From Terracoccus sp. 273MFTsu3.1 (GTDB taxonomy: Bacteria > Actinomycetota > Actinomycetes > Actinomycetales > Dermatophilaceae), in contig NZ_KB911820.1 in assembly GCF_000383675.1 (NCBI RefSeq), forward strand, positions 992,001 to 1,056,000: a DNA stretch of 64,000 nt. The letters run 5' to 3'. The notes beneath the pieces were generated by a model. The model saw nothing but the letters and a program-made list of their open reading frames with translations, was not told the DNA's origin and made no database searches. Positions 46,303 through 60,976 of this stretch are shown one piece after another; positions within the stretch are counted from its first letter, which is position 1, and every line of letters begins with the position of its first letter. The position numbers were made by a program, and so were the translations under genes.

Positions 46303-46857
46303 TCAGGCAGACCGGATTGGTGCCGACCCGAAGGCGACGTCGAAACGGTCGCACCAGATGACGACCGAGGTCAGGCCCGACAGGTCCGTGCCCGCCGGGA
46401 CGGCGTAGTTCTGGTTGCCGTCGGTGCCCTTGAGGTGGCCGAGCGGCACGAACCGGCCGTCGTCGTAGCGGTGCCAGTCGTCGCCACCCGCCGGCTGGTC
46501 GGTCAGCCACACGACGACGTCCGGCCCGTCGCTCGTCGAGAAGCCCTCGAGCCGCAGGACCGTCGCGCCGTCGGCCAGCTCGAGCACCCGTGCCGTGCCG
46601 GAGGTGGCGTGCTCACCGTCGACGAAGCGGCCCTCACCGATGACGCGCGGAGCCGCTGACGCGACCGAGGGCGTGGGCCGTGTCGGGGCCGCGCCCTCGT
46701 CGGGCGTCGGGCCCGTGACGGTCGCGGCCGCGGCCGGGAGCGGCTCGTCGACGACGCTGCGGGTGAGCAGGCGCCACGGCTGGAAGAGCGCGAGGCCGAC
46801 GACGAGCACGACGGAGGCAGTCACGACGGCGGCGGCGATCCAGCGGAGTCGGTTCAT
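46303..46857 (-). CDS. DM13 domain-containing membrane-anchored protein
   Basis: The 184-residue protein has an N-terminal membrane anchor or signal (LRWIAAAVVTASVVLVVGLA), a Pro/Thr-rich linker, and a C-terminal DM13 domain of about 100 residues. The DM13 landmarks are GEGRFVDGEHATSGTARVLE, LEGFSTSDGPDVVVWLTD, LKGTDGNQNYAVPAGTDL and SVVIWCDRFDVAFG, including the near-invariant cysteine in WCDRF. DM13 domains are proposed to take part in extracytoplasmic redox chemistry. ATG 46857 is preferred; an in-frame start 12 codons earlier is possible. Confidence 0.85.
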   Translation of the reverse strand: MNRLRWIAAAVVTASVVLVVGLALFQPWRLLTRSVVDEPLPAAAATVTGPTPDEGAAPTRPTPSVASAAPRVIGEGRFVDGEHATSGTARVLELADGATVLRLEGFSTSDGPDVVVWLTDQPAGGDDWHRYDDGRFVPLGHLKGTDGNQNYAVPAGTDLSGLTSVVIWCDRFDVAFGSAPIRSA

Positions 46858-46932
46858 GGACCCAGTGGACCGGCCCCGCCGTCGCGGCGCCATGACGAGA
46901 CCCTTACGACGTCGTGACGAGCCGTCCGGGAC

Positions 46933-48788: not shown

Positions 48789-49742
48789 TCAGCCGACGAG
48801 CAGGTATGCCGGGTGCTCGGGGACGCTGCCGGTGTCGCGCAGGTGCCGGGCCAGGTGCAGTGCACCGTCGAGCGCCCCTCCGAGGGCTGGTGAACGCCGG
48901 GCGCCGCCTCCGGCCGCGGCCAGACGGTCGTCCAGGGCGTCGGTGACCGGTCGGGCGCCGAGGAGGCCACCGGTCGCGGTGAGGATCGGGTCGGTCAGGC
49001 CCTCTGCTGCGCGAAGCAGCGAGTCGGCGAGGTCGACGCCGGAGCGGACGCAGAGGGCGCGGGCGACCTCGTCGTCGGCGGCGGCTGTCGTGACGAGCGG
49101 GGCGACGGCGGCGAGGCGCTCGGGGGCGTCGGGGCTCGTCATGACGAGTCGTGGCCAGCCCTCGGGAGGGCCGAGCAGGTCGGTGGCCGCGGCCAGCAGG
49201 GCGGACGACCCGTCGGGCAGCCCGTCGTGCGCGCGCAGGGCTGCGCGGAGTCCTGCCATGCCGAGGGTCGCCGCCGACCCCGCGTCGCCGAGCACGTGCC
49301 CCCACCCGTCGACCCGGCGCCACTGCTGCTCGAAGTCGGTGCCGAACGCGACCGCCCCGGTGCCCGCCGCGACGACCGCGCCCGGACCGATGCGGCCCGT
49401 CGCGCCGACGAGGTTGGCGACGGCGTCGCTGACGACGACGGTGCGCTCGGCGCCGAGGCCCTGCGCCACGGTGCGCAGCACCTCCGCCCGGTCGGCGAGG
49501 AAGAGCAGGCCGCGCATCGACCAGACGACGACCGCGGGAGCCGCGGTGCCACGGCCGCGCTCGTCGTCCGGACTCGCTCCCAGCAGGGCGCGGGCGTCAG
49601 ATACGAGGGCTGCGACGTCGATGCCGCCCGCACCGACCCGCACGCCCGGTGCCGTGAGCACGGGACCGGGCGACGCGGCACACAACTGCAGTCGCAGGCC
49701 CGACCCGCCGACGTCGACGGCCACGACCCGCTGCTCGCTCAC
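48789..49742 (-). CDS. BadF/BadG-family sugar kinase (GlcNAc/MurNAc kinase-like)
   Basis: The 317-residue protein is an actin-fold kinase of the BadF/NagK-like group. It begins VVAVDVGGSGLRLQL (phosphate-1 loop), has VVSDAVANLVGATG with the catalytic Asp, VAAGTGAVAFGT (phosphate-2), WGHVLGDAGSAATLGM and ILTATGGLLGARPV near the adenosine site. Family members phosphorylate N-acetylglucosamine, and the clostridial MurK also phosphorylates N-acetylmuramic acid. In this cluster MurQ needs MurNAc-6-phosphate and the importer is not a PTS, so MurNAc kinase activity is the natural inference. The GTG start is 13 bases after the permease stop. Confidence 0.83.
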   Translation of the reverse strand: MSEQRVVAVDVGGSGLRLQLCAASPGPVLTAPGVRVGAGGIDVAALVSDARALLGASPDDERGRGTAAPAVVVWSMRGLLFLADRAEVLRTVAQGLGAERTVVVSDAVANLVGATGRIGPGAVVAAGTGAVAFGTDFEQQWRRVDGWGHVLGDAGSAATLGMAGLRAALRAHDGLPDGSSALLAAATDLLGPPEGWPRLVMTSPDAPERLAAVAPLVTTAAADDEVARALCVRSGVDLADSLLRAAEGLTDPILTATGGLLGARPVTDALDDRLAAAGGGARRSPALGGALDGALHLARHLRDTGSVPEHPAYLLVG

Positions 49743-49755
49743 GCGAGCGAGCCGA

Positions 49756-50661
49756 TCACTTCGCCATGCCGGCGGTCAAGCCCGCGACGATCTGCTTCGT
49801 GGCCACGAGGAAGAGCACGATGAGCGGGACCGTCGTGATGACGAGCCCGGCGAAGACGGCCGAGTAGTTCGTCGCGTTCTCGCCGAAGAAGCTCGTCAGG
49901 CCGACCGGGAGGGTGTACTTGTCCTCGCTACGCAGCAGCACGAGCGGGAAGAGGAAGTCGTTCCAGATCGGCACGAACCGGAAGACGGCCACGGTCGCGA
50001 GGGCCGGGCGCACGAGCGGGACCATGATCCGCCAGAAGGTCTGCCAGCTGCTCGCGCCGTCGAGCGCCGCCGCCTCCTCGAGCTCCTCCGGCAGCTGCCG
50101 GAAGAACGTCGTGAGGACGAAGATCGAGAACGGGATGCCGGACGCGGCGTACATGAGCATGAGGCCGAGCCGTGAGTCGATGAGCCCGAGCCCGTCGAAG
50201 AGGTAGAAGATCGGCAGGATCGCGAGGTGGATCGGCAGCATCAGGCCGGAGAGGAAGAGCGCCTCGAGCCACCGGAAGATCCGCGACCGGCCGCGGGCCA
50301 GCGCGTAGGCGGCCATCGTCGCGACGGCGGTCGAGATCGCGACCGCGCCCACGGTGACGAGGAGCGAGTTGCCGAAGTACGTCGCGAAGTTGCCGGTGGT
50401 CCACGCCTCGACGTAGCTCGCCGTCGTCGGGGGAGCGGGGAGGCCGAGCGGGTCGGTGATGAGGTCGGCGTTGGTGCGGAAGCTGTTGCTCACCATGAGC
50501 AGCAGCGGCACGAGCGCCAGGGCGGCATACCCCCAGAGGAGCACGCTGGCCCCCGCGCCGCCCACGGGACGGTTGACCCGCGGTGGGCGGCGGCTGCCCT
50601 GCGCAGGACGGGCGGCCACCTGCTCCTGAGGCGCCTCGGTGGTGACGACGGCCGTGGTCAT
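49756..50661 (-). CDS. Carbohydrate ABC transporter permease (MalG-like)
   Basis: The 301-residue inner-membrane permease has six hydrophobic segments, from VLLWGYAALALVPLLLMVSN to LVITTVPLIVLFLVATKQIV. The ATPase-contact EAA-type loop LEEAAALDGASSWQTFWRIM is at about residues 195-215. It pairs with the MalF-like permease upstream, whose stop overlaps its ATG (ATGA). No ATPase gene is in the cluster, so a shared MsiK-type ATPase elsewhere is likely. The substrate is predicted to be a cell-wall amino sugar from the neighbouring murQ and hydrolase genes. Confidence 0.92.
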   Translation of the reverse strand: MTTAVVTTEAPQEQVAARPAQGSRRPPRVNRPVGGAGASVLLWGYAALALVPLLLMVSNSFRTNADLITDPLGLPAPPTTASYVEAWTTGNFATYFGNSLLVTVGAVAISTAVATMAAYALARGRSRIFRWLEALFLSGLMLPIHLAILPIFYLFDGLGLIDSRLGLMLMYAASGIPFSIFVLTTFFRQLPEELEEAAALDGASSWQTFWRIMVPLVRPALATVAVFRFVPIWNDFLFPLVLLRSEDKYTLPVGLTSFFGENATNYSAVFAGLVITTVPLIVLFLVATKQIVAGLTAGMAK

Positions 50662-51557
50662 GCGGTGATCCTCCGCTCGTGACGGCGCAGCACGGCCGTG
50701 GCGGCGTAGGCGCCACCGAAGATGATGAGAAAGAGCAGCGTGGCGAGCGCCGACGAGCTGCCGATGGCGTCGGTCGCTCCCGAGTCGAACGCCGTGCGGT
50801 AGAAGAGCAGTGACACGAAGTCCGTTGCGCCCGCGGGGTTTCCGGTGGAACCACCGAATGCGTAGGGCAGCGCGAAGGCCTCCATGGCGAAGATGAACGT
50901 CAGCACCGACACCGTGCCGATGGCGGGCACGAGCAGCGGCAAGGTGATCTTGAAGAACGCCTGCCGGTTGCTCGCGCCGTCGACGCGCGCCGCCTCGGTC
51001 AGCTCCTCCGGGACGCCACCCAGTGCGGCGCCGTAGAGCAGCACGGGAAAGCCGATCCACTGCCACACGCTGACGAGGATGACGACCCAGATCGCCGTCT
51101 TGGGGTCGCCAAGCCACGGGAGGGCCCAGGACTCGAGGCCGACCTTCGTCAGCAGCGTGTTGACCGGGCCGAACGTCGGCGACAGCAGCAGCGTCCAGAG
51201 GTAGCCGATGACGATCGGGCTCACGAGGTAGGGCATCGCGTAGAGCGTCTGCAGCATCCGGCGGCTGCGCGGGCGCGTGTAGAGCAGGTAGGCGATCGTC
51301 AGCCCGAAGGTGTTCTGGATGAGCATCGTGCCGACGAAGAAGAGCACGTTGTGCAGCAGCGCTCGCGGCAGGTCGGTCGTGAACGGGGCCCTGGTGAAGA
51401 GCGTCACGAAGTTCTCGACCCCCGCGAACGCTCCGCGGGTCGTGCCCTGCCACTGGAAGAAGGCGTAGGAGAACGCCGTCACCATCGGGTAGAGCACGAA
51501 CACCGCGAAGAGCGCGAGCGCCGGAGCGACGAAGACCAGGCCGGTGCGGCGCTTCAT
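50658..51557 (-). CDS. Carbohydrate ABC transporter permease (MalF-like)
   Basis: The 299-residue protein has six membrane segments beginning GLVFVAPALALFAVFVLYPM. The EAA loop LTEAARVDGASNRQAFFKIT is at about residues 205-225. It follows the binding-protein gene by 10 bases and overlaps the MalG-like gene, giving the standard binding protein-permease-permease order of CUT1 sugar importers. Confidence 0.92.
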   Translation of the reverse strand: MKRRTGLVFVAPALALFAVFVLYPMVTAFSYAFFQWQGTTRGAFAGVENFVTLFTRAPFTTDLPRALLHNVLFFVGTMLIQNTFGLTIAYLLYTRPRSRRMLQTLYAMPYLVSPIVIGYLWTLLLSPTFGPVNTLLTKVGLESWALPWLGDPKTAIWVVILVSVWQWIGFPVLLYGAALGGVPEELTEAARVDGASNRQAFFKITLPLLVPAIGTVSVLTFIFAMEAFALPYAFGGSTGNPAGATDFVSLLFYRTAFDSGATDAIGSSSALATLLFLIIFGGAYAATAVLRRHERRITA

Positions 51558-51567
51558 GCAGGAACCG

Positions 51568-52887
51568 TCACGCGCTCGGCTTGAACCAGGTCTTGACGCC
51601 GGTCTCGAGGTCCTCGCTCACCGCGGCGGCGTCCTTGGAGCCGAGCAGCATCTCCTGCAGGCCCTTGCCGAGCAGGTCGGTGCCCGTGGGCGCGCCGTAG
51701 CGGAAGTCGGTGAGCAGCAGGTACGGCGAGCCGGACTTCGTGTAGTTCTCGCTCATCTGCTTGAGCAGCGGGTCGGTGGGCTCGACCCCCGGCACGGCCG
51801 AGAGCTGCTTGATGTCGTCGCTGACCATCTGGCCGAACTCCTTCGTGGTCATCCACTTCACGAGCTCCGTGGCCTCGGTCGGGTGCTTCGACTTGGCGGA
51901 GACGCCGAAGTTGCCATCGGCCCATCCTGCCGTCGTCGCCTCGGACCCGCTCGGCGAGCCGGGCGCCGGCGGCACCTGGAAGATGCCGATCTTCATGGCT
52001 GGGTTGGCCTTCTGGAAGACGGACAGGTCGAAGCTGCCGCCGGGGATCATCGCGGCCTTCTCGGCCGAGAAGAGCGTCTGGGCGTCGGTCTGGGCCACTC
52101 CGGTGGCGTTCTTGGGCATGTACTTCTCGAGGTCGCCGACGACCTTGACGGAGCCGACCCAGTCGGGGTCGGTGAACGTCTTCTGGCCCGAGAGCACCTG
52201 GGACTGGAACGCCTTGCCGCCGAAGCGCGCGCCGGCGAGGACCTCGTGGACGATCGGGAGCGTCCAGTCGTCCTTGGCGCCGATGGCGATCGGGGTCACG
52301 CCGGCGGCCATGAGCTTGTCGTTCGCGGCGATGAACTCGGCCCACGTCGTCGGGGCCGCGATGCCGTTCTTCTCGAAGAGGCCCTGGTTGTAGAACATCT
52401 GCACCGTCTGGCGGGCGAGCGGCACGGAGTAGGTCTTGCCGTCCTCCTTGCCCTTGGCGCTCGCGACGACGTTCTCGTCCCAGCCCGCGAGGTCGACCTT
52501 GCCGTCGAGCGGCAGCAGCGACTTGCTCGCGACGGTGCCCTGGAGCTGGCCGTAGGAGCGCACCTGGGGCACGTCGGGACCGCTCGAGCCGGCGAGGCCG
52601 GTCGCGAGGATCTTGTTGTACTCCGTCGCCTTGAACGCCTTGAAGTCGACGTTGACGTTCGGGTGCGCCTTCTCGTAGGCGTCGAAGATCTTGTTGTATG
52701 CGGCCTCGTCCTCCACGCGCCACGACCACACCGTCAGGGTGACCTTGCCGTCGTCGCCCGTGCTCGAGGAGCCGGAGGAGGACGGCGAGCAGGCGGTCAC
52801 GACGAGCGCTCCGGAGAGCGCGGCGATCGTCAGGACCGTGCGGCGTGCGCGCCGCGACGAGCCGGGGAGGCGTGAGGCGAACGTCAT
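51568..52887 (-). CDS. Extracellular sugar-binding lipoprotein of an ABC importer
   Basis: The 439-residue protein has a signal peptide ending in lipobox LVVTACSPSSSG (Cys about residue 33), a Ser-rich linker, and a family-1 solute-binding domain starting VTLTVWSWRVEDEAAYNKIF. GSSGPDVPQVRSYGQLQG and NEKLMAAG-like AANDKLMAAGVTPIAIGAKD are typical. It delivers the ligand to the two permeases encoded directly downstream. AGGAG precedes ATG 52887; an in-frame start 15 codons earlier is less likely. It follows murQ by 64 bases and is probably in the same transcript. Confidence 0.92.
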   Translation of the reverse strand: MTFASRLPGSSRRARRTVLTIAALSGALVVTACSPSSSGSSSTGDDGKVTLTVWSWRVEDEAAYNKIFDAYEKAHPNVNVDFKAFKATEYNKILATGLAGSSGPDVPQVRSYGQLQGTVASKSLLPLDGKVDLAGWDENVVASAKGKEDGKTYSVPLARQTVQMFYNQGLFEKNGIAAPTTWAEFIAANDKLMAAGVTPIAIGAKDDWTLPIVHEVLAGARFGGKAFQSQVLSGQKTFTDPDWVGSVKVVGDLEKYMPKNATGVAQTDAQTLFSAEKAAMIPGGSFDLSVFQKANPAMKIGIFQVPPAPGSPSGSEATTAGWADGNFGVSAKSKHPTEATELVKWMTTKEFGQMVSDDIKQLSAVPGVEPTDPLLKQMSENYTKSGSPYLLLTDFRYGAPTGTDLLGKGLQEMLLGSKDAAAVSEDLETGVKTWFKPSA

Positions 52888-52951
52888 GGTGGTGCTCCTG
52901 TCGGGTTCTGCTGGGTGCCTGGGGGTCGGCACGTGGGGTGGGAGGGTGGGT

Positions 52952-53893
52952 TCAGCGTTCGGGCACGGAAGCGGTCGGGGTGGCTGCGTGGCCGCCGAGG
53001 GACGTCAGCGCGTGGGCCACGGATCCGTCGTGGGCGGCGATGGCGTCGCGGGCCGTGGCCGCGTCGACGCCCGCGAGCATCGAGAGCAACGCGGGCTTGA
53101 GCTCGCCGTCTGCGTCGTCGAGAGCCTGGCGGGCCTGCTCGGCGTCGGCGCCGGTGGCCTCCTGGAGGATCCGGACGACGCGGCCGCGGAGCTTGGCGTT
53201 CGTCGCGACGACGTCGACCATGAGGTTGCTCCACGTGCGGCCGAGGCGGATCATCACGGCGGTCGAGAACGAGTTGAGGACGAGCTTCTGGGCGGTGCCG
53301 GCCTTGAGGCGCGTCGAGCCGGTCAACGCCTCGGGCCCGGTGCGCACGGCGAGCAGCAGGTCGGCGTGGACGGCGACCTCGGCGTCCGGGTTGGCGGTGA
53401 CGAGGGCCGTGACGGCGCCGAGCTCGCGAGCCCGCGCGAGAGCGCCGGCCACGAACGGCGTACGCCCGGAGGCCGTGAGGCCGATGGCGATGTCGCCGGG
53501 ACGCAGGGCCCCGGCCTCCTCGCGACCGAGGTCGACGTCGTCCTCGACGTTCTCGACGGCCTCGAGCAGCGCGCCGGGCCCGCCCGCGTGGTGGGCCACG
53601 ACGAGGCCGGCCGGGGCGTTGAAGGTGGGGCGCAGCTCGGCGGCGTCGAGCACGGCGAGGCGTCCGGACGTGCCGGCGCCGAAGTAGTGGACGGCCCCGC
53701 CGGCGCGGAGCGACTCGACCGCGCGGTCGACGAGGAGGGCCAGCTCGGGGAGGACCTCGCCCACGGCACCGGCCACCGTCGCGTCCTCGGCGTTGAGTGC
53801 CCGGAGGATGTCGAGAGAGGTGTGCGTGTCGATGGACGTCGTCCCCGGATGGCGCTCCTCGGTGGGGGCGTCCACGGTCACCTCGCTGCTCAC
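52952..53893 (-). CDS. murQ: N-acetylmuramic acid 6-phosphate etherase
   Basis: MurQ removes the lactyl ether from MurNAc-6-phosphate to give GlcNAc-6-phosphate and D-lactate, the key step of cell-wall MurNAc use. The 313-residue protein has the family signatures GGAVHYFGAGTSGRLAVLDA (sugar isomerase fold phosphate loop), RPTFNAP, IGLTASGRTPFVAGAL, and LKAGTAQKLVLNSFSTAVMI with the Glu-type region in NAEDATVAGAV. GTG 53893 sits 7 bases after a TAACCT box with TTGACG 17 bases further up, a strong leaderless promoter. It heads the murQ-importer-kinase unit. Confidence 0.96.
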   Translation of the reverse strand: MSSEVTVDAPTEERHPGTTSIDTHTSLDILRALNAEDATVAGAVGEVLPELALLVDRAVESLRAGGAVHYFGAGTSGRLAVLDAAELRPTFNAPAGLVVAHHAGGPGALLEAVENVEDDVDLGREEAGALRPGDIAIGLTASGRTPFVAGALARARELGAVTALVTANPDAEVAVHADLLLAVRTGPEALTGSTRLKAGTAQKLVLNSFSTAVMIRLGRTWSNLMVDVVATNAKLRGRVVRILQEATGADAEQARQALDDADGELKPALLSMLAGVDAATARDAIAAHDGSVAHALTSLGGHAATPTASVPER

Positions 53894-53900
53894 CCGTGCG

Positions 53901-53929
53901 AGGTTAGTTTCCTACGTCGTCAGCGTCAA
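53901..53929 (-). promoter_or_regulatory. murQ promoter (TTGACG-N17-TAACCT), leaderless, with a CCTACG half-site
   Basis: On the minus strand TTGACG (53924-53929) and TAACCT (53901-53906) are 17 bases apart, and GTG 53893 follows after 7 bases. The spacer contains CGTAGG (53911-53916), the same half-site as in the nagZ operator. Confidence 0.75.
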
Positions 53930-53969
53930 TGCCGTAAATGAGTAACATTCCCGTCACGGTCCCCCGACC

Positions 53970-54132
53970 CTCGAGTGAACGCTCCGTCCCACTCGAGTGA
54001 GCGCTCCGTCCCACGCGTTGCGTCCGGGGACCCTGCGCCTGGGGCTGGGCGCTCACTCGAGTGTGGTCGGGCGCTCACTCGAGGGTGGTCAGGCGCTCAC
54101 TCGACTGTGGTCAGGCGCTCACTCGAGGGTGG
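53970..54132. repeat. 22-bp repeats in inverted orientation (2 + 4 copies)
   Basis: Two direct copies of a 22-bp unit with core CTCGAGTGAGCGC lie at 53970-53991 and 53992-54013. Four copies of the reverse-oriented unit (GCGCTCACTCGAG core plus GTGGTC) lie at 54049-54070, 54071-54092, 54093-54114 and 54115-54132. The two arms could pair into a long hairpin. The array lies between the murR stop and the murQ promoter. Confidence 0.9.
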
Positions 54133-54144
54133 CGGCTCGACGGG

Positions 54145-55044
54145 TCAGTCGGTGACGTGGTGGCCGGCGACGGCCTCACGGGTGTCGGCGACGGCCTTGC
54201 GGGCCTTGCGGAGGTTGCGCTGGGCGACGGCGATGTACAGGCAGTCGACGACGGTGAGGGCGGCGATGCGGCTCGCGGTGGCGCCGGAACGCAGGCTCGT
54301 CTCGCGGGCCGCCGTCGTCAGCAGGATGTCGACGCCGGAGGCGAGCCGGGACAGCGGGAAGTTCGTGATCGCGAGCGTCCGCGCACCCGTCGAGCGCGCC
54401 GCGGCCAGCGCCTCGATGGTCTCGGTCGTCGTGCCGGAGTGCGAGATGCCCACCGCGATGTCGCCGGGGCCGAGCAGCGTCGCGCTCGTCAGGGCGATGT
54501 GGGGGTCGTTCCACGCGAAGGCGACGATGCCGATGCGGTGCAGCTTCTGCTGGAGGTCGGTGCCGACGATCGAGCTCGCGCCGATGCCGTAGATGTCGAC
54601 GCGACCGGCCCGGGCGATGGCCGCCGCCGCCGAGGCGAGGGCGTCGCGGTCGAGCTGCTGGGCCGTCTCCTCGACGGCGCTCGCGTCGCTGAAGGCCACC
54701 TTGGCGATGATGTCGTCGATGGTGTCGCTCGCGCTGATGTCGGTGCCGCCGCGGTTCATCGTGCGCGGGTGCGCCGACTCCTCGGCGAGCGCGAGACGCA
54801 GCTGCGGGTAGCCGGGCAGCCCGAGCCGTCGGCAGAAGCGCAGCACCGTCGTCTCGGACGTGCGTGCGGCCGTGGCCAGCTCGCTGATGGTCAGGCCGGC
54901 GGCTCGGCGCGCGTCGGCGAGGACGATGTCGGCGACACGGTCCTCGGCGGGCGACAGGGAGGGCTTGATCCCCCGCAGGCGGATGAGCAGCGACGCGCTC
55001 GCGGCACCTGCGGGGGACGAAGCCCCGTCCTCGGTCCTGGGCAT
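54145..55044 (-). CDS. murR: RpiR/MurR family transcriptional regulator
   Basis: The 299-residue regulator has an N-terminal RpiR helix-turn-helix (SLSPAEDRVADIVLADARRA; LTISELATAARTSETTVLRF, residues ~30-80) and a C-terminal SIS sugar-phosphate-binding domain (ARAGRVDIYGIGASSIVGTD; DIAVGISHSGTTTETIEAL). The domain order equals MurR, which senses MurNAc-6-phosphate. It sits four bases after the amiE-like stop and upstream of murQ. A TAGCGT box 6 bases before ATG 55044 predicts its own leaderless promoter inside the amiE-like gene. The symbol is assigned by domain and context. Confidence 0.88.
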   Translation of the reverse strand: MPRTEDGASSPAGAASASLLIRLRGIKPSLSPAEDRVADIVLADARRAAGLTISELATAARTSETTVLRFCRRLGLPGYPQLRLALAEESAHPRTMNRGGTDISASDTIDDIIAKVAFSDASAVEETAQQLDRDALASAAAAIARAGRVDIYGIGASSIVGTDLQQKLHRIGIVAFAWNDPHIALTSATLLGPGDIAVGISHSGTTTETIEALAAARSTGARTLAITNFPLSRLASGVDILLTTAARETSLRSGATASRIAALTVVDCLYIAVAQRNLRKARKAVADTREAVAGHHVTD

Positions 55045-55048
55045 GGGC

Positions 55049-56791
55049 CTACGCTACGGCGTCGCGGCCGGCGAGCCGCCAACCGTCCGCCGTGAAGGCG
55101 TCGGGTGTCTTCTCCCCGTCGAGCAGCACGCCACCGGGCCCCCGCACGACCACGTCGTCGACGGCGACGCCGCGACCGAGGTAGCCCCCGTCGGTCGTGT
55201 GCCGCCAGCGCAGCAGCTGCGACCCGGCCGGCAGGTCGGCCCGCACCTGCACCCAGCGCCTCGTGCCGGCGCCGGAGATGACGCCGTCGGCCGTCTCGGT
55301 CTGCCCACGGTCGACGACGTCGAACGGCAGAGCCGTCCACGTCGCACCACCGTCGGTGGAGCGCTCGAGGTGGAGCAGGTCGGTCTCCTCGGTGTCGAGG
55401 AAGAGGTCGAAGCCGAGGCGTGCGCCCCCCGGACCCACGGGGAGGGCGGGCGTCGTCAGGGTGGTGGTCGTCGCGTTGTCGGACCCCGTGAACCAGGCGG
55501 TGTCGCCATGGCGCGGGCGGATGCCCATCGACGCCGCGAGTCCGTGGGCCCACTCGCGACGGGCGAGGTTGATCGATCCCCAGTTGCGGGAGGGGTGCAC
55601 GCGGTTGGTGAGCAGGATCGCGAACGACCGCGACGTGAAGTCGATGACGATCGATGTGCCCGTGTAGCCGGTGTGGCCCGCGGTGCGCGGCCCGGACAGC
55701 GCGTCCATGTACCACCGCTGGTCGAGCTCGAAGCCGAGACCGTGCGAGTCGCCGGGGAAGGCGCCGTTGAAGTTCGTGATGAGGGCCTCGACGCTCTTGC
55801 GGCTGAGGATGCGCTCGCCGCGGTAGGAGCCGCCGTTGAGCAGCGCCTGGGACAGGATCGCGAGGTCGTCGACGGTGGAGAAGACGCCGGCATGCCCGGC
55901 GACCCCGCCCAGCGACCAGGCGTTCTCGTCGTGGACCTCGCCTCGGACCATGCCGCGCGGCGGCGCCGTCTGGTACTCGGTCGCCGCCGTCCGGGCCTTT
56001 TCCGTGGGGTTGTAGCCGGTGTCCTTCATGCCGAGCGGCGCGGTGATCCGGTCGTGGACGACGGCGTCGAGCGGCTCGCCCCGCAGCTTCTCGACCATGA
56101 CGCCGAGGGTGATGAGGTTGAGATCGCTGTAGAGGTAGGTCGTGCCCGGCGCGTTGGTCAGCGGCTGGTCCATGACGGCCTTGATGCGCGAGGCCTTGTC
56201 GGGCCACTTGCTCCAGAGCGGGAGCCAGGACGTGAAGCCGGACGTGTGCGTCAGCAGCTGGCGCACCGTGACGGCCCCTTTGCCGTTGGCGGCGAACTCC
56301 GGGAGGTAGGCCGCCACCGGGCTCTCGAGGGAGACGCGCCCCTCCTCGATGAGCTGGACGACGGCGATCGAGGTGAAGAGCTTGGAGACCGAGGCGAGGT
56401 CGAAGATCGTGTCGGTGCGCATCGGCTCCCACTGGTCGCGGGGGAGCTCGGTGCTCGCGTCGGCGTAGCGCAGCGCCCAGCCGCTCGCGTCGCGTTCGAC
56501 GATGCGTCCCTCGTGTCCCATGATCCCGACGGCACCGGCGAAGAGCGGGTGGCCGCTCGCGTCGACCTGCTCGTGGGCGTGGATGCGGTCGACGGCCTCG
56601 GCGATCGGGGCCGGGTCGAGCCCGACCGACGCGGGGCTCGCGTCGGACAGCACGGTGTTGGGCGGCGCGAAACCGCGGTCGGGCTTGCTGAAGTCGTCGG
56701 CCGTCGCGGAGCCGACGGGTCCCGCGGTCACGAGACTGCCCGCGAGGGCGAGGCTGCCGAGGGCAGCGGGGACGAGGGTGCGCAGGCGCAT
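55049..56791 (-). CDS. amiE: Secreted serine hydrolase, beta-lactamase family (AmiE-like N-acetylmuramyl-L-alanine amidase)
   Basis: The 580-residue precursor has a signal peptide (LVPAALGSLALAGSLVTAGP) and a class C beta-lactamase-type domain. The catalytic Ser and Lys are in FDLASVSKLFTS (S-V-S-K, about residue 130) and the second motif is YLYSDLN. Further typical segments are GVAGHAGVFSTVDDLAIL and GHTGYTGTSIVID. A C-terminal jelly-roll-like domain of about 140 residues (RSTDGGATWTALPFDVVD; LLRWRHTTDGGYLGRG) may bind carbohydrate. In B. subtilis AmiE (YbbE), encoded beside namZ and nagZ, strips peptides from muropeptides; the shared neighbourhood is my basis for the name. AGGAG precedes ATG 56791. 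Confidence 0.78.
   Translation of the reverse strand: MRLRTLVPAALGSLALAGSLVTAGPVGSATADDFSKPDRGFAPPNTVLSDASPASVGLDPAPIAEAVDRIHAHEQVDASGHPLFAGAVGIMGHEGRIVERDASGWALRYADASTELPRDQWEPMRTDTIFDLASVSKLFTSIAVVQLIEEGRVSLESPVAAYLPEFAANGKGAVTVRQLLTHTSGFTSWLPLWSKWPDKASRIKAVMDQPLTNAPGTTYLYSDLNLITLGVMVEKLRGEPLDAVVHDRITAPLGMKDTGYNPTEKARTAATEYQTAPPRGMVRGEVHDENAWSLGGVAGHAGVFSTVDDLAILSQALLNGGSYRGERILSRKSVEALITNFNGAFPGDSHGLGFELDQRWYMDALSGPRTAGHTGYTGTSIVIDFTSRSFAILLTNRVHPSRNWGSINLARREWAHGLAASMGIRPRHGDTAWFTGSDNATTTTLTTPALPVGPGGARLGFDLFLDTEETDLLHLERSTDGGATWTALPFDVVDRGQTETADGVISGAGTRRWVQVRADLPAGSQLLRWRHTTDGGYLGRGVAVDDVVVRGPGGVLLDGEKTPDAFTADGWRLAGRDAVA
55051..55056 (-). promoter_or_regulatory. Predicted -10 box, leaderless murR, overlapping a CCTACG half-site
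   Basis: Minus-strand TAGCGT, 6 bases, ATG 55044. CCTACG (plus strand 55048-55053) overlaps it, which would allow autoregulation. Confidence 0.45.
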
Positions 56792-56846
56792 GTCACTCCT
56801 AGATCGTGCAACAGGTCGTGCAGCGGGTGGTGAGCCGGTGGACAGG

Positions 56847-58169
56847 TCAGTTCGAGGGGCCGCGGTAGAGGAGGTACTGCTGGCGCCGCGCGTCGAAGGC
56901 TGCGAGCTCGTCGCGCCACGCGCCGACGACCTCGTCGGCGGAGGCACCGGCCGAGATCTGGGTGCGCAGCCGCTGCGAGCCGGTCAGCTTGTCGATCCAG
57001 TAGGGCCGAGCCGGGTCGTAGGAGTCGTAGCGCCAGGCGAAGTCGCTGTAGAGCGCCTTGGCAGCCACGAGCATCTCGACGGTCGAGCGGATCGGGTCGA
57101 AGGCCGACGGGTCGGTGACGTGCAGCTGGATGCCGCCGCACACGAGACCGGTGTGCTTGCTGAACGTGGGGGAGAAGTAGGCCTCGCGGAAGCCGACGCC
57201 CGGAAGGTCCAGCGCCGCAAGGCGTTCGGCCCACCTGTAGTCCACGTAGGGCGCGCCGATGAGCTCGAACGGCCGGGTCGTGCCGCGGCCCTCGGACAGG
57301 TTGGTCCCCTCGAACATCCCCGTGCCGGGATACACGAGCGCGGTGTCGGGGGTCGGCATGTTGGGACTCGGCATGACCCAGGGGAGCCCGGTGACGGCAT
57401 ACGGCACGTCCCTGCGCCAGCCCTTGACCTCGATGACGGACAGCTCGGCGAGCCGGCCACCGGCGTCGGCCGTGAGGAACTCGCCGTCGAAGTAGCGGGC
57501 GAGCTCGCCGACCGTCATGCCGTGGGCCTGGACGATCTCCTTGGCGCCGACACCGGAGGTCCACGGCGTCGTCATCATCGGACCGATCGCCTTGCCGCCG
57601 ATGGGGTTCGGTCGGTCGAGCACGACGAAGCGGGCGCCGACGGCGACGGCCGCGCGCATGGCCGTGTACATCGTCCAGATGTAGGTGTAGAAGCGCGAGC
57701 CGACGTCCTGGATGTCGAAGACGACGGTCTCGACCCCGGCCGTGCGGAAGAGCGTCGTCATCTTGGCCGCGTTGGCGCCGTAGGCGTCGTAGACCATGAG
57801 CCCGGTGCGCGGGTCGGTGTGGTTGCCCTCGGAGTCGCCGGCCTGCGCCGTGCCGCGGAAGCCGTGCTCGGGCCCGAAGACGCCGACGATGTCGACGGCT
57901 CCGGACTCGTGCATCTCGTCGACGATCGTGCGCAGGTTGGTGAGGATGCCGGTCGGGTTGGTGATGACCCCGACCTTCTGGCCCGAGAGCGCCGACCAGC
58001 CGGCCGCGGCTGCGCTCTGCGCGCCCGTCGTGACGGGGTTGTTGGGGTAGTTGCCGGCGTATGCCGTCGGGCCGGCCTGTGCAGCAACGGATCCGGCCGC
58101 GGTGGCGGGGATGGCGACGGCGCCGAGTGCGCCGGCGGTGAGCAGCTGCCTGCGGTTGAGGTTGGTCAT
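56847..58169 (-). CDS. namZ: Exo-beta-N-acetylmuramidase NamZ (DUF1343)
   Basis: The 440-residue protein belongs to DUF1343 (YbbC/NamZ), shown in B. subtilis to release terminal MurNAc from peptidoglycan. It carries a twin-arginine type signal (NLNRRQLLTAGALGAVAIPA). Catalytic-domain motifs include GVITNPTGILTNLRTIVDEM, VGVFGPEHGFRGTAQAGD with the conserved Glu-His, TDPRTGLMVYDAYG, VVFDIQDVGSRFYTYIWTMY and VVLDRPNPIGG. FEGTNLSEGRGTTRPFELIG is in the C-terminal half. Its ATG overlaps the stop of the EEP gene, and the amiE-like gene follows 55 bases later. Confidence 0.92.
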   Translation of the reverse strand: MTNLNRRQLLTAGALGAVAIPATAAGSVAAQAGPTAYAGNYPNNPVTTGAQSAAAAGWSALSGQKVGVITNPTGILTNLRTIVDEMHESGAVDIVGVFGPEHGFRGTAQAGDSEGNHTDPRTGLMVYDAYGANAAKMTTLFRTAGVETVVFDIQDVGSRFYTYIWTMYTAMRAAVAVGARFVVLDRPNPIGGKAIGPMMTTPWTSGVGAKEIVQAHGMTVGELARYFDGEFLTADAGGRLAELSVIEVKGWRRDVPYAVTGLPWVMPSPNMPTPDTALVYPGTGMFEGTNLSEGRGTTRPFELIGAPYVDYRWAERLAALDLPGVGFREAYFSPTFSKHTGLVCGGIQLHVTDPSAFDPIRSTVEMLVAAKALYSDFAWRYDSYDPARPYWIDKLTGSQRLRTQISAGASADEVVGAWRDELAAFDARRQQYLLYRGPSN

Positions 58170-59080
58170 CTGGAGCTCTCCGATCCTTGGTCGAGCAGGA
58201 CGGTCGCGGCGACGGCACGGTGGTCGCTCGCGCCGACGTGGGCGGGGTCGTTGGCGGTGCTGGCGTGCACGACGTCGATGCCGGGGGAGACGGCGACGAG
58301 GTCGATGCGCTTGGTGGGGTCGAGGGCCGGGTAGCTGAGGCCGGGCTCGCCGTCGCGATCCGGGGCCACGGCCCAGGCGTCGCGCAGCCGGGTCCAGAGG
58401 CCGGCCAGCTCGGGCGCCCTCGCGTCGGCGTTGAGGTCCCCGAGCAGCACCTGGTCGGCGCCGGGCGGGTCCTCGTCGAGGATCGCGAGCGTGTCGGCGA
58501 CCTGGAGACGTCGGACGGTCGGGTCGCCGCGGTAGTCGAGATGGGTGACGTAGACGTGGGTGCGGGCCCCTCCGATCTGCACCGTGGCCTCGAGGAAGCC
58601 CGGTGCCGGGGCGGGCGACGGGTTCGGGTCCTGGGTCGAGAGTCGGGTCAGGTCGTGGTTCTCCACGGCGACGATCGGATGGCGCGAGAGCAGGGCGACG
58701 CCGAACTCGCGGCGCGGTGCGCCGGGTGCCGGAGGTTCGAGGCTGTAGATCGGGGCGAACGCGGTGCGCATCCCGAGCCGGCGCCCGAGCTCGGTGACGG
58801 TGTCGTCGAAGCGGCTGCGCTCGCCCCAGTGGACGTCGGCCTCCTCGAGGCCCACGACGTCGGCGTCGAGGGCCCGGATCGCCGCCGCGGTGCGGTCGAG
58901 GTCGTAGACGTCGTCGCTGCCTGCGCCCGCGTGGATGTTGTACGTCGCGACGACGGCCCGGACCGGCGGGACGGACGAGGTGACTGCCGGCACGCCGTGG
59001 GCGCTCGCAGGCACGAGCGCGGTGGCCGTGGCCGCGGCGGCGACGAGAGCCGCCGCGGCCACCCGGTGCAGGGCGCTCAT
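58166..59080 (-). CDS. Secreted endonuclease/exonuclease/phosphatase (EEP) family protein
   Basis: The 304-residue precursor has a signal peptide (LHRVAAAALVAAAATATALV, cleavage near ASAHG). The EEP fold shows VVATYNIHAGAGSD (Asn), ADVVGLEEADVHWG with the metal-binding Glu, HVYVTHLDYRGDP, DQVLLGDLNADARAP with catalytic Asp-x-Asn, and GASDHRAVAATVLL with the final Asp-His pair. All key residues are present, so it should be an active metal-dependent phosphodiesterase outside the membrane. Its presence between nagZ and namZ, with overlapping ends, suggests a wall-linked phosphodiester substrate such as a teichoic-acid-type polymer; that is speculative. Confidence 0.85.
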   Translation of the reverse strand: MSALHRVAAAALVAAAATATALVPASAHGVPAVTSSVPPVRAVVATYNIHAGAGSDDVYDLDRTAAAIRALDADVVGLEEADVHWGERSRFDDTVTELGRRLGMRTAFAPIYSLEPPAPGAPRREFGVALLSRHPIVAVENHDLTRLSTQDPNPSPAPAPGFLEATVQIGGARTHVYVTHLDYRGDPTVRRLQVADTLAILDEDPPGADQVLLGDLNADARAPELAGLWTRLRDAWAVAPDRDGEPGLSYPALDPTKRIDLVAVSPGIDVVHASTANDPAHVGASDHRAVAATVLLDQGSESSR

Positions 59081-59081
59081 G

Positions 59082-60899
59082 TCAGTAGGTCAGCCCGTGC
59101 CCGAACGGGTAGAGCACCGTGGCCGGGTCGCCGGCGACGGGGATGTCGACGGGCAGCGAGGCCGTCGGCGCGACGTCCCCGACGATGACGCGAGCGGCCG
59201 CCTCGATCGCAACCGGGCTGTAGGAGTACGTCGCGACGTAGGTCGGGGCGCTCGTGAAGTAGGCGATGTCGTAGGGGTCGCGCACGGCGACGACGACGAC
59301 GGTCTTCCCGGTCGCGAGCAGCGCCTTGACGAGCTTCTGCTGACCGCCACGGGTGTCGGTGACGCTCGTGTCCCAGGCCTTCATCGTCGTGACGACGACG
59401 ACGTCCTTGTCGGCGGCCGCGGCGACGGCGGAGGCCACTGCCGCGTCGGTGGGCGACGTGCCCGTCTGGACGGTCTGCACCGTCGCACCCTTGGCCGTCA
59501 TCGCCGCCGCGAGCGTGGCCGTCGTCGAGACGCCGTAGCCGGTGACGAGGACCTTCTTGCCGGCCGGGGCGATCGGGAGGGCCTTGGCGTCGTTCTTGAC
59601 GAGCGTCGTCGTGCGGTCGGTGACGGAGCTCGCCGACGCGAGGTGCGCGGGGGTGCCGACGACCGCCGAGAGGGCGGCAGGGTCGGCGTACGGGCGGGCC
59701 ACGATGCCGCGGCGGTACTTCAGGCCCAGCACGCGGCGCACCTTCGCGTCGAGCTCGCTGCGCGGGATGCGACCGCTGCGGACCGCGGCGATGACGGCGG
59801 CGTAGGCGTCGTCCATCGCCGGGGTCATGAGCAGCTGGTCGACGCCGGCGAGCAGCGCCCGGACGGCCACCTCGGCATCGCCGTAGAGGTCGCGGACGCC
59901 CTGCATGGCGAGGGAGTCGGTGACGATGACGCCCTCGTAGCCGAGCTCCCCGCGCAGCACGCCGGTCATGATCGGCTTGCTCAGCGTGGCCGGGTTGCCC
60001 GAGTCGTCGAGCGCCGGGAACGACAGGTGCGCCGTCATGATCATGTCGATCTGCTCGTTGATGGCGGCCTTGAAGGGCGGGGCGTCGATCGACTCCCACT
60101 GCTCGCGCGTGTGGGTGATGATCGGGAACGCGACGTGGCTGTCGGTCGCGGTGTCACCGTGGCCGGGGAAGTGCTTGGCCGACGACGCCACGCCACCGTC
60201 GCGCTGGTAGCCGGCCACCTGCGCGGCCGCCAGCTCGGCGGCGAGGGCGGCCCGCGACGAGAAGGACCGGGTGCCGATCACGGGGTTGAGCGGGTTGACG
60301 TTGACGTCGCAGTCGGGCGCGAAGTTCGTGTTGACGCCCATCGCGAGCAGCTCACGGCCGGTGATCGCCGCGGCGGTGCGGGCGTCGGCGGCGCTCCGGC
60401 CGGCCCCGAGGGCCATCGAGCCGGGGAACTGCGTGGCGGGCGGCCCGATGCGTGTCACGACGCCCTGCTCCTGGTCGGTCGCGATCTGGAGCGGGACCCG
60501 GACCTTGCTCGCCTGCGTCAGGGCCGCCTTCTGCAGCCCGTTGGAGAGGCCGACGATCTGGTCGGGGTTCTGCACGCTGTCGGTCCAGGCGAAGTAGATG
60601 ACACCGCCGAGGTGGTACTTCTGCACGACCTCGGCCGGGCTCGCGACGCCGTAGAGCGGGAGGTTGCGGCTGTCGGGCGTCGTGGCGTCCTTGCCGTAGA
60701 CGTTCTGGATGAAGAGCTGACCGACCTTCTCCTCCAAGGACATCCGGGCGATCGTGGCGGTCACCCAGCCCGTCTCGCCGGCAGTGGCTGCAGGGGCGGG
60801 GCCCGACGCGGCACGCGCGCTGCCGGCCGCGGCACCGGCTGCCGCAGCGGCGAGGCCGCCCGCGATCACGGAGCGACGTGAGAGTTCGGACATGGACAT
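59082..60899 (-). CDS. nagZ: GH3 beta-N-acetylglucosaminidase (NagZ-like), secreted
   Basis: The 605-residue precursor starts with a twin-arginine-like signal (SELSRRSVIAGGLAAAAAGA). The GH3 barrel has MSLEEKVGQLFI, DQEQGVVTRIGPPATQFPG, NTNFAPDCDVNVNPLNPVIG, and the NagZ-specific acid/base loop SAKHFPGHGDTATDSH (His-Asp dyad). The nucleophile Asp is in GVIVTDSLAMQGVRDLYG. A C-terminal GH3-C domain (KKVLVTGYGVSTTATLAAAM) is present, as in B. subtilis NagZ (YbbD). It removes GlcNAc from muropeptides. GGAGG precedes the ATG, and the gene heads the nagZ-EEP-namZ-amiE-murR unit under an operator-bearing promoter. Confidence 0.92.
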   Translation of the reverse strand: MSMSELSRRSVIAGGLAAAAAGAAAGSARAASGPAPAATAGETGWVTATIARMSLEEKVGQLFIQNVYGKDATTPDSRNLPLYGVASPAEVVQKYHLGGVIYFAWTDSVQNPDQIVGLSNGLQKAALTQASKVRVPLQIATDQEQGVVTRIGPPATQFPGSMALGAGRSAADARTAAAITGRELLAMGVNTNFAPDCDVNVNPLNPVIGTRSFSSRAALAAELAAAQVAGYQRDGGVASSAKHFPGHGDTATDSHVAFPIITHTREQWESIDAPPFKAAINEQIDMIMTAHLSFPALDDSGNPATLSKPIMTGVLRGELGYEGVIVTDSLAMQGVRDLYGDAEVAVRALLAGVDQLLMTPAMDDAYAAVIAAVRSGRIPRSELDAKVRRVLGLKYRRGIVARPYADPAALSAVVGTPAHLASASSVTDRTTTLVKNDAKALPIAPAGKKVLVTGYGVSTTATLAAAMTAKGATVQTVQTGTSPTDAAVASAVAAAADKDVVVVTTMKAWDTSVTDTRGGQQKLVKALLATGKTVVVVAVRDPYDIAYFTSAPTYVATYSYSPVAIEAAARVIVGDVAPTASLPVDIPVAGDPATVLYPFGHGLTY

Positions 60900-60947
60900 G
60901 GTGCCTCCAGGAATGTGAAGAATTCACGCAATCTGTCGTCGCGCCGG

Positions 60948-60976
60948 AACTTACCTACGTACCGTGGCGTAGGCAA
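60948..60976 (-). promoter_or_regulatory. nagZ operon promoter (TTGCCT-N17-TAAGTT)
   Basis: On the minus strand TTGCCT (60971-60976) and TAAGTT (60948-60953) are exactly 17 bases apart. The predicted start leaves a ~40-base leader with GGAGG before ATG 60899. Confidence 0.7.
60954..60973. promoter_or_regulatory. 20-bp palindromic operator CCTACG-N8-CGTAGG
   Basis: CCTACG (60954-60959) and CGTAGG (60968-60973) are perfect inverted half-sites occupying the promoter spacer and part of the -35 box. A bound protein would block RNA polymerase. The MurR-like regulator encoded in the same cluster is the obvious candidate. Confidence 0.65.

Follow-up and report, generated by a model that had tools for sequence, protein, structure and literature searches.

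A candidate N-acetylmuramic acid salvage cluster of Terracoccus with an ABC importer and a separate kinase

Introduction

Which proteins would carry N-acetylmuramic acid (MurNAc) into an actinobacterial cell and phosphorylate it in place of a MurP-type permease of the phosphotransferase system (PTS)? In Bacillus and Escherichia coli, MurNAc is transported and phosphorylated by one protein, a PTS permease of the MurP type. The question is raised by a gene cluster of Terracoccus sp. 273MFTsu3.1 that lies in a window of 64,000 nucleotides (the whole stretch of DNA analysed; contig NZ_KB911820.1, positions 992,001 to 1,056,000). Ten genes, all on the minus strand from position 60899 to 48789, encode in this order a family 3 glycoside hydrolase (GH3), an endonuclease/exonuclease/phosphatase-fold protein (EEP), NamZ (gene ybbC in Bacillus subtilis), an AmiE-like hydrolase of the beta-lactamase fold (Bla), a MurR/RpiR-family regulator, MurQ, a binding protein (SBP) and two permeases (PermF and PermG) of the CUT1 group of ATP-binding cassette (ABC) transporters, and a BadF-family kinase (Kin). 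These families and the common direction of the genes had been named in a preliminary description made from the letters of the window, and domain and model matches confirm both.

The cluster is probably, at a rough probability of 0.77, a MurNAc salvage system of its own actinobacterial family and of some others, in which extracellular trimming would be followed by ABC import of free MurNAc and by the action of the BadF kinase and MurQ. This reading is carried by the genes and how they are conserved, by two promoter-like pairs that have a site in common, by fusions of kinase and MurQ, and by the lack of AnmK and of any high-scoring PTS EIIC domain in the eight genomes of the genus that were tested. 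Outside the membrane, the NagZ-like GH3 enzyme, the AmiE-like hydrolase and NamZ would trim peptidoglycan fragments to N-acetylglucosamine (GlcNAc), peptide and free MurNAc. Free MurNAc would be imported by the CUT1 binding protein and the two permeases with an ATPase presumably encoded elsewhere; none of the ten genes encodes an ABC ATPase, and no search for one elsewhere in the genome was made. The kinase would then convert MurNAc to MurNAc-6-phosphate (MurNAc-6P), MurQ would convert this to GlcNAc-6-phosphate and D-lactate, and NagA- and NagB-like enzymes would lead from GlcNAc-6-phosphate to fructose-6-phosphate. The genome contains NagA-like (204.6 bits) and NagB-like genes (229.4 bits), each just below its curated cut-off. 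MurR would repress both promoters at the shared site until released by a MurNAc-derived sugar phosphate.

Conservation of the cluster

Kinase matches (E <= 1e-10) were found in 56 of 186 genomes of the organism's own family, and 40 of the 61 kinase loci listed were fetched with their flanks, a hand-chosen and non-random sample. The order GH3-NamZ-Bla-MurR-MurQ-SBP-PermF-PermG-Kin, nine genes with EEP set aside, is present in 21 of the 40. Because this order is kept while kinase identity falls to 47% within the 21 loci, the gene arrangement goes beyond chance. The closest named relatives are mostly Terrabacter, with kinases at most 92% identical. EEP, given in the preliminary description as a part of the cluster, turned out to be accessory, since besides the source genome only three of the 21 full-cluster relatives have it (L034, L036 and L042); it is also found in the reduced locus L152. 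Among the other family loci, L050 has everything but the transporter, L054 has GH3-MurR-MurQ with a degenerate kinase, L068 has a kinase-MurQ fusion, and 16 are without the cluster.

The core of the cluster extends beyond the family. A search of the phylum gave kinase matches (E <= 1e-15) in 48 of 396 genomes, and a scan of named genomes gave 31 loci. Of the named loci, nine were scored (the remaining 22, L072-L093, were left out), along with 35 of the phylum search and five of genus g42, which makes 49 further loci (L094-L142). MurQ lies within the locus in 26 of the 49, and the order MurQ-SBP-PermF-PermG-Kin is kept in L094, L096, L098, L099, L100 and L109, six loci that do not belong to the family (L099 begins within MurQ and has its end only). 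This core is found in Georgenia, Oceanitalea, Microbacterium and one further genome. Over the 186 family genomes, a cluster-type kinase is accompanied by MurQ and NamZ in 30 of 30 cases, and MurQ is present in 41 of the 42 genomes counted as having an intact-type kinase, although these are related genomes and not independent events, and Fisher p-values for these counts take no account of that. Conversely, MurQ occurs with no intact-type kinase in 38 family genomes and NamZ with no cluster kinase in 17. The count includes 11 genomes of genus g42, six of which were inspected.

That wall and sugar genes without a common role came together here by chance has a negligible probability. Two points speak for it: actinobacteria commonly have CUT1 transporters and BadF kinases, and the genome of Terracoccus contains four further weak binding-protein matches. 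The order is kept across genera and families, however, and both promoters have the shared site. A second module of binding protein, two permeases and BadF kinase, 43-56% identical, is present in the same genus in a locus without MurQ (L071, G175:C14).

Sources of MurNAc-6P and the kinase

No AnmK was found in the eight genomes tested of the same genus, and no high-scoring PTS EIIC either (no match in three, at most 52.3 bits in five). Among the 42 genomes searched, AnmK exceeds its cut-off in 14, and an EIIC of 238-239 bits occurs in G182 and G001 only. Since AnmK and a high-scoring EIIC are absent from the genus, the kinase is the best candidate for the source of MurNAc-6P. No EIIC was detected among the cluster proteins, so none of them qualifies as a MurP-type PTS permease. 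The single EIIC match of the Terracoccus genome (50.7 bits) lies in a PTS_EIIA_2/IIB protein that is followed by HPr-like and enzyme I-like frames, named by eye. This fructose-like PTS (L180), with PTS_EIIA_2, PTS_IIB and a weak EIIC, was judged an unlikely MurNAc carrier. In G001 (L054), AnmK and a high-scoring EIIC accompany the degenerate kinase beside GH3-MurR-MurQ, a possible case of kinase decay after the arrival of another route.

The kinase is a PF01869 member with the catalytic Asp and glycine loop of the BcrAD/BadFG, MurK-type family, and Asp106, Gly127 and Gly129 are invariant in 21 aligned kinase sequences. In a comparison of 91 kinases (that of the source genome and up to two matches above 35 bits from each of 89 loci), Asp106 and both glycines are kept in 50 of 51 MurQ-linked and in 27 of 40 unlinked kinases. 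The label of MurQ linkage requires nine changes on the kinase tree, with at least five on well-supported branches. A reading frame that contains both kinase and MurQ occurs in all six of the g42 genomes fetched (the lineage of L068 and L123-L127) and in L119 and L121 of family f7; the kinase tree keeps the two fusion lineages apart, and Pfam confirmed both domains in a single open reading frame (ORF) in the two cases tested, L068 and L119. In G121 (L123), the MurQ portion runs over two frames.

The fusions bear on an alternative in which GlcNAc or chitobiose, set free by NagZ, is what importer and kinase handle, while MurNAc enters otherwise and MurQ merely shares the promoter. This alternative is unlikely, though it is the strongest of those considered. 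It finds some favour in a weak match of the binding protein to the NgcE model for GlcNAc/diacetylchitobiose (73.1 bits, cut-off 399.65), in a weak match of the kinase to the NCBIfam GlcNAc kinase model (44, cut-off 370) and in PDB entry 1zc6, which was matched as well as 8zo3. MurK of Clostridium acetobutylicum accepts GlcNAc according to passages of PMC5790795, and the genus is without a high-scoring GlcNAc-type PTS as well. Against it, importer and kinase trail MurQ at gaps of 2-19 bp behind the MurQ promoter, they stay beside MurQ without adjacent NagZ and NamZ in L094, L096, L098 and L100, kinase and MurQ are fused in two lineages, and a search of the genus for AnmK and PTS EIIC gave no other source of MurNAc-6P.

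The form in which MurNAc would enter is a separate matter. Import of GlcNAc-MurNAc or of a MurNAc-peptide, with the kinase acting on that form, is improbable to a greater degree than import of GlcNAc. Other bacteria do import peptidoglycan fragments by ABC transporters (YejBEF-YepA, as cited in a passage of PMC11382707). However, all three trimming hydrolases have export-type leaders (by eye), so free MurNAc should form outside, and the substrate of MurQ is MurNAc-6P in the passages of PMC5061867. Import of free MurNAc followed by its phosphorylation is the preferred reading.

Nine large genomes of the same class (L103-L107 and L138-L141; g60/f6, 6-11 Mb, probably Streptomyces) contain an intact-motif kinase homologue in fetched loci without MurQ. 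A wider proposal is evenly poised between true and false: a MurNAc-specific CUT1 importer and a dedicated kinase would form one MurR-controlled unit that replaces MurP in several actinobacterial lineages, and the unlinked homologues would be the missing MurNAc kinase of Streptomyces-like large actinobacteria. The 13 unlinked kinases without the Asp106/glycine pattern make up a degenerate clade. In the organism's own family, 14 loci (L054-L067) form a well-supported clade of related BadF-family proteins in which the glycine loop and the catalytic Asp pattern are lost. Two of these loci, L056 and L058, contain FliW and a methyltransferase/glycosyltransferase-like gene, and L056 also contains flagellin-, CsrA- and GT2-domain genes; the proteins of this clade are possibly exapted pseudokinases.

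Predicted promoters and operator-like sites

Intergenic gaps in the cluster range from -4 to +55 bp (with the Bla start at 56791), the exception being 251 bp between MurR and MurQ. A single ten-gene operon was replaced by two promoter units, because this gap contains a second conserved promoter. A -35/-10-like pair (P1) was found upstream of GH3 in 22 of 23 sequences; the miss is L036, in which the GH3 start used lies further downstream. The best site after the P1-like pair has 0-3 mismatches to GTGAATNNTTCAC in all 23 loci, and the distance from this palindrome to the GH3 start used is 13-117 bp in 21 of 22 relatives and 338 bp in L036. A second such pair (P2) was found before MurQ in 21 of 23 sequences (misses L046 and L051). 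As predicted from sequence, the unit behind P2 is MurQ-SBP-PermF-PermG-Kin. The GTG start of MurQ is 7 nt past the P2 -10 element (53893-53906), which suggests that the MurQ message is leaderless.

A site of the GTTACTCATTTAC type ranks 1-8 (median 3) in each of the 22 loci scored, both strands counted, and is always 17 bp before the P2 -35 element. The matrix behind these ranks was built from the GH3-side sites with the own locus left out each time, and L051, in which no P2 was found, was not scored. As the palindrome fills two ranks in most loci and the loci are related, this is a conserved place and not 22 independent finds. In the single window, the operator is not beyond chance, with two matches against 3.1 expected at up to two mismatches. 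The matrix places both sites at the top of the window (22.3 and 12.8). In 40 triplet-shuffled windows, however, nearly the same matrix (without one repeated site) gave best scores of mean 12.2 and maximum 22.3 and second-best scores of mean 10.3 and maximum 13.9. What supports the operator is that it keeps the same place in related loci. Of 24 loci that are reduced or distant, 16 have a top-four site near MurQ (L144, L146, L152, weak at 6.1, L153, L159, L156, L161, L162, L163, L054, L166, L167, L094, L096, L098 and L108), and in L094, L096, L098 and L108 it sits between MurR and MurQ. No such site was found near MurQ in the other eight (L154, L157, L095, L100, L109, L111 and the fusion loci L068 and L123), nor a strong operator-like site near the NagA- or NagB-like genes. 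The palindrome-like site shared by both promoters is a possible MurR operator.

Loci and matches that do not fit a dedicated MurNAc importer and kinase

Several observations weigh against MurNAc salvage by importer and kinase. For the binding protein, the matches point to a sugar but to no particular one. The sequence-level PDB matches of the kinase are nearly tied between 8zo3 (5.1e-11) and 1zc6, a probable GlcNAc kinase (5.2e-11), and its profile matches are 8zo3 (8.2e-19), the hexokinase 2e2n (4.5e-18) and 1zc6 (2.5e-15). Position 105 does not settle its specificity: it is Ser in 40 of 51 MurQ-linked and in 4 of 40 unlinked kinases, and this was dropped as proof of MurNAc specificity because an independent-pairs comparison did not decide on the association. 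In MurK of Tannerella forsythia, Thr94, which precedes the catalytic Asp, is important for MurNAc, and the sugar kinases compared have Asn there, according to passages of PMC10465942. Set against the small residues of the MurNAc pocket of T. forsythia MurK (S133-P134-L135 and T94), the Terracoccus kinase has Ser105 before Asp106 and D145-G146-W147, an equivalence drawn by eye. The residue in 8zo3, which is named a MurNAc/GlcNAc kinase, is Asn, so the residue before the catalytic Asp alone decides nothing.

The reduced loci count on the same side. Among 20 NamZ or kinase loci fetched from the family, in which three of the genomes have the kinase, seven have NamZ-Bla-MurR-MurQ without importer or kinase (L144, L146, L152, L153, L154, L157 and L159; GH3 is in the locus in six of them), so the hydrolase-MurQ set can persist without the CUT1 importer. 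Elsewhere in the importer-less genomes tested, binding-protein matches reach 32% identity at most. The kinase occurs without the importer in L161, L162, L163 and L050; in L163, a gap of about 8.7 kb separates Bla and MurR. In all 11 of these genomes, the seven and the four, a SIS_2 gene lies next to a further BadF kinase of nearly full length. Such kinases may act on amino sugars too and probably belong to a separate amino-sugar system. Among seven full-cluster genomes, a second BadF kinase of this type exceeds the cut-off in G175 only, and G099 has one below it. In G156 (L156:13384-19499), a SIS_2 gene comes after MurQ, together with an ABC transporter and a BadF kinase that differ from those of the cluster and stand in their place. 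No PTS replacing importer and kinase was found in the ten ORFs checked downstream of MurQ in six loci. Of the other fetched loci, L149 ends at the contig edge after the binding protein, six have NamZ alone and two have GH3-NamZ. Finally, in G182 (L053), AnmK and a high-scoring PTS EIIC occur besides the full cluster, so that possible routes coexist there. The earlier proposal is partly supported. Its core, that an ABC importer and a separate kinase do the work of a MurP-type PTS, is well supported by the conserved order, the shared promoter unit, the fusions and the lack of AnmK and a high-scoring EIIC in the genus; the relatives that do without the importer, or without importer and kinase, speak against a strict requirement for both, and G182 is a further qualification.

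Relation to known systems

In B. subtilis, murQRP-amiE-nagZ-ybbC is the recycling cluster. Like it, the Terracoccus cluster combines MurQ, MurR and AmiE-, NagZ- and NamZ-type genes, with extracellular trimming of muropeptides predicted; unlike it, the MurQ unit contains a CUT1 ABC importer and a BadF kinase instead of the PTS permease MurP (passages of PMC5061867). The closest described operon of transporter, kinase and MurQ is murTKQ of T. forsythia, which shares with Terracoccus a kinase of the BcrAD/BadFG family (in Terracoccus a candidate MurNAc kinase), the absence of a PTS and an adjoining peptidoglycan-recycling cluster; NamZ enzymes are cited for T. forsythia as well (passages of PMC10465942 and PMC5790795). 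However, T. forsythia is a Gram-negative MurNAc auxotroph and uses the transporter MurT, and the wording "ABC transporter" is absent from PMC10465942. Another described MurNAc kinase is MurK of C. acetobutylicum, which acts on MurNAc and GlcNAc and slightly prefers GlcNAc (passages of PMC5790795), which keeps GlcNAc among the possible substrates of the Terracoccus kinase. The top PDB match of the Terracoccus kinase, 8zo3, bears the same kind of name, and we infer that it is this enzyme.

Among actinobacteria, Streptomyces coelicolor (SCO4305-4308) makes MurNAc-6P and needs MurQ (SCO4307), and no MurP was found. It resembles Terracoccus in its MurQ with a MurR-like neighbour and in the lack of MurP; its importer and kinase are not named in the passages of PMC5061867, whereas the Terracoccus cluster has candidates for both. 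MurP and MurT are the MurNAc importers named in a 2026 review (passages of PMC13204101). No description of a CUT1 MurNAc importer was recognised in the literature searched, a search that left most subscription literature outside its coverage. The preliminary description knew of no characterised actinobacterial system of this make-up; its novelty is narrowed by T. forsythia, in which transporter, separate BadF-family kinase and MurQ are already known (PMC10465942), while the CUT1 ABC version looks new. For actinobacterial uptake and phosphorylation of MurNAc, the cluster offers defined candidates for importer, kinase, regulator and operator.

Layout and gene identities

Table 1 Features of the Terracoccus cluster, in positions of the window
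Feature	Position	Strand	Basis
GH3 beta-N-acetylglucosaminidase, NagZ-like, two domains, Tat-type leader (by eye)	59082..60899	-	PF00933 3.6e-84, PF01915 8.4e-20
EEP-fold protein, Sec-type leader (by eye), accessory	58166..59080	-	PF03372 1.8e-22
NamZ exo-beta-N-acetylmuramidase (old DUF1343), Tat-type leader (by eye)	56847..58169	-	PF07075 5.3e-72, PF20732 3.6e-56
Beta-lactamase-fold hydrolase, AmiE/PBP4B-like, C-terminal MAM-like domain, Sec-type leader (by eye)	55049..56791	-	PF00144 4.3e-68, PF20773 1.1e-12 (on 55049-56797)
MurR/RpiR-family regulator	54145..55044	-	HTH_6 5e-17, SIS 4.4e-19
MurQ, MurNAc-6-phosphate etherase	52952..53893	-	NF003915 356.8 bits (cut-off 168), NF009222 315.7 (cut-off 255)
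CUT1 extracellular solute-binding protein, lipobox-like leader (by eye)	51568..52932	-	PF01547 5.3e-33; later ATG start possible
CUT1 permease 1	50658..51557	-	PF00528 1.1e-21
CUT1 permease 2	49756..50655	-	PF00528 1.6e-20
BadF-family sugar kinase, proposed MurNAc 6-kinase	48789..49742	-	PF01869 1.4e-11
Predicted promoter P1 (TTGCCT, 17 bp, TAAGTT) before GH3	60948..60976	-	pattern match; coordinates counted by hand
Palindrome GTGAATTCTTCAC, predicted MurR operator, between P1 and GH3 start	60915..60927	.	sequence comparison
Predicted promoter P2 (TTGACG, 17 bp, TAACCT) before MurQ	53901..53929	-	pattern match; coordinates counted by hand
Weaker operator-like site GTTACTCATTTAC beside P2 -35	53934..53946	.	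matrix of P1 sites

The GH3 protein classes as NagZ by its match to B. subtilis NagZ and by an Asp-His motif, which we take to be a hallmark of NagZ. Its best PDB matches are the ybbD/NagZ entries 3bmx, 4gyj and 3lk6, with KHFPGHGDT..DSH aligned, and its score with the NCBIfam beta-N-acetylhexosaminidase model (159.3) is below the cut-off of 207. NamZ has both domains of its family and gives the single NamZ_N match of the whole genome. The start of the beta-lactamase-fold gene was corrected to the ATG at 56791. PBP4B is the top NCBIfam model of this hydrolase (185 bits, below the cut-off of 385). AmiE has the beta-lactamase fold, and the fold (PF00144) suggests an AmiE-like enzyme. The regulator matches NCBIfam MurR/RpiR models, each below its cut-off. 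MurQ scores 291.2 with the equivalog model TIGR00274, just below the cut-off of 302, and its closest PDB match is the etherase 4s12. The flanks look unrelated, with an ATP-dependent DNA ligase upstream and a GH13/CBM48 protein downstream. Downstream of the GH13 gene, a protein with a DM13 electron-transfer domain is encoded at 46303-46893.

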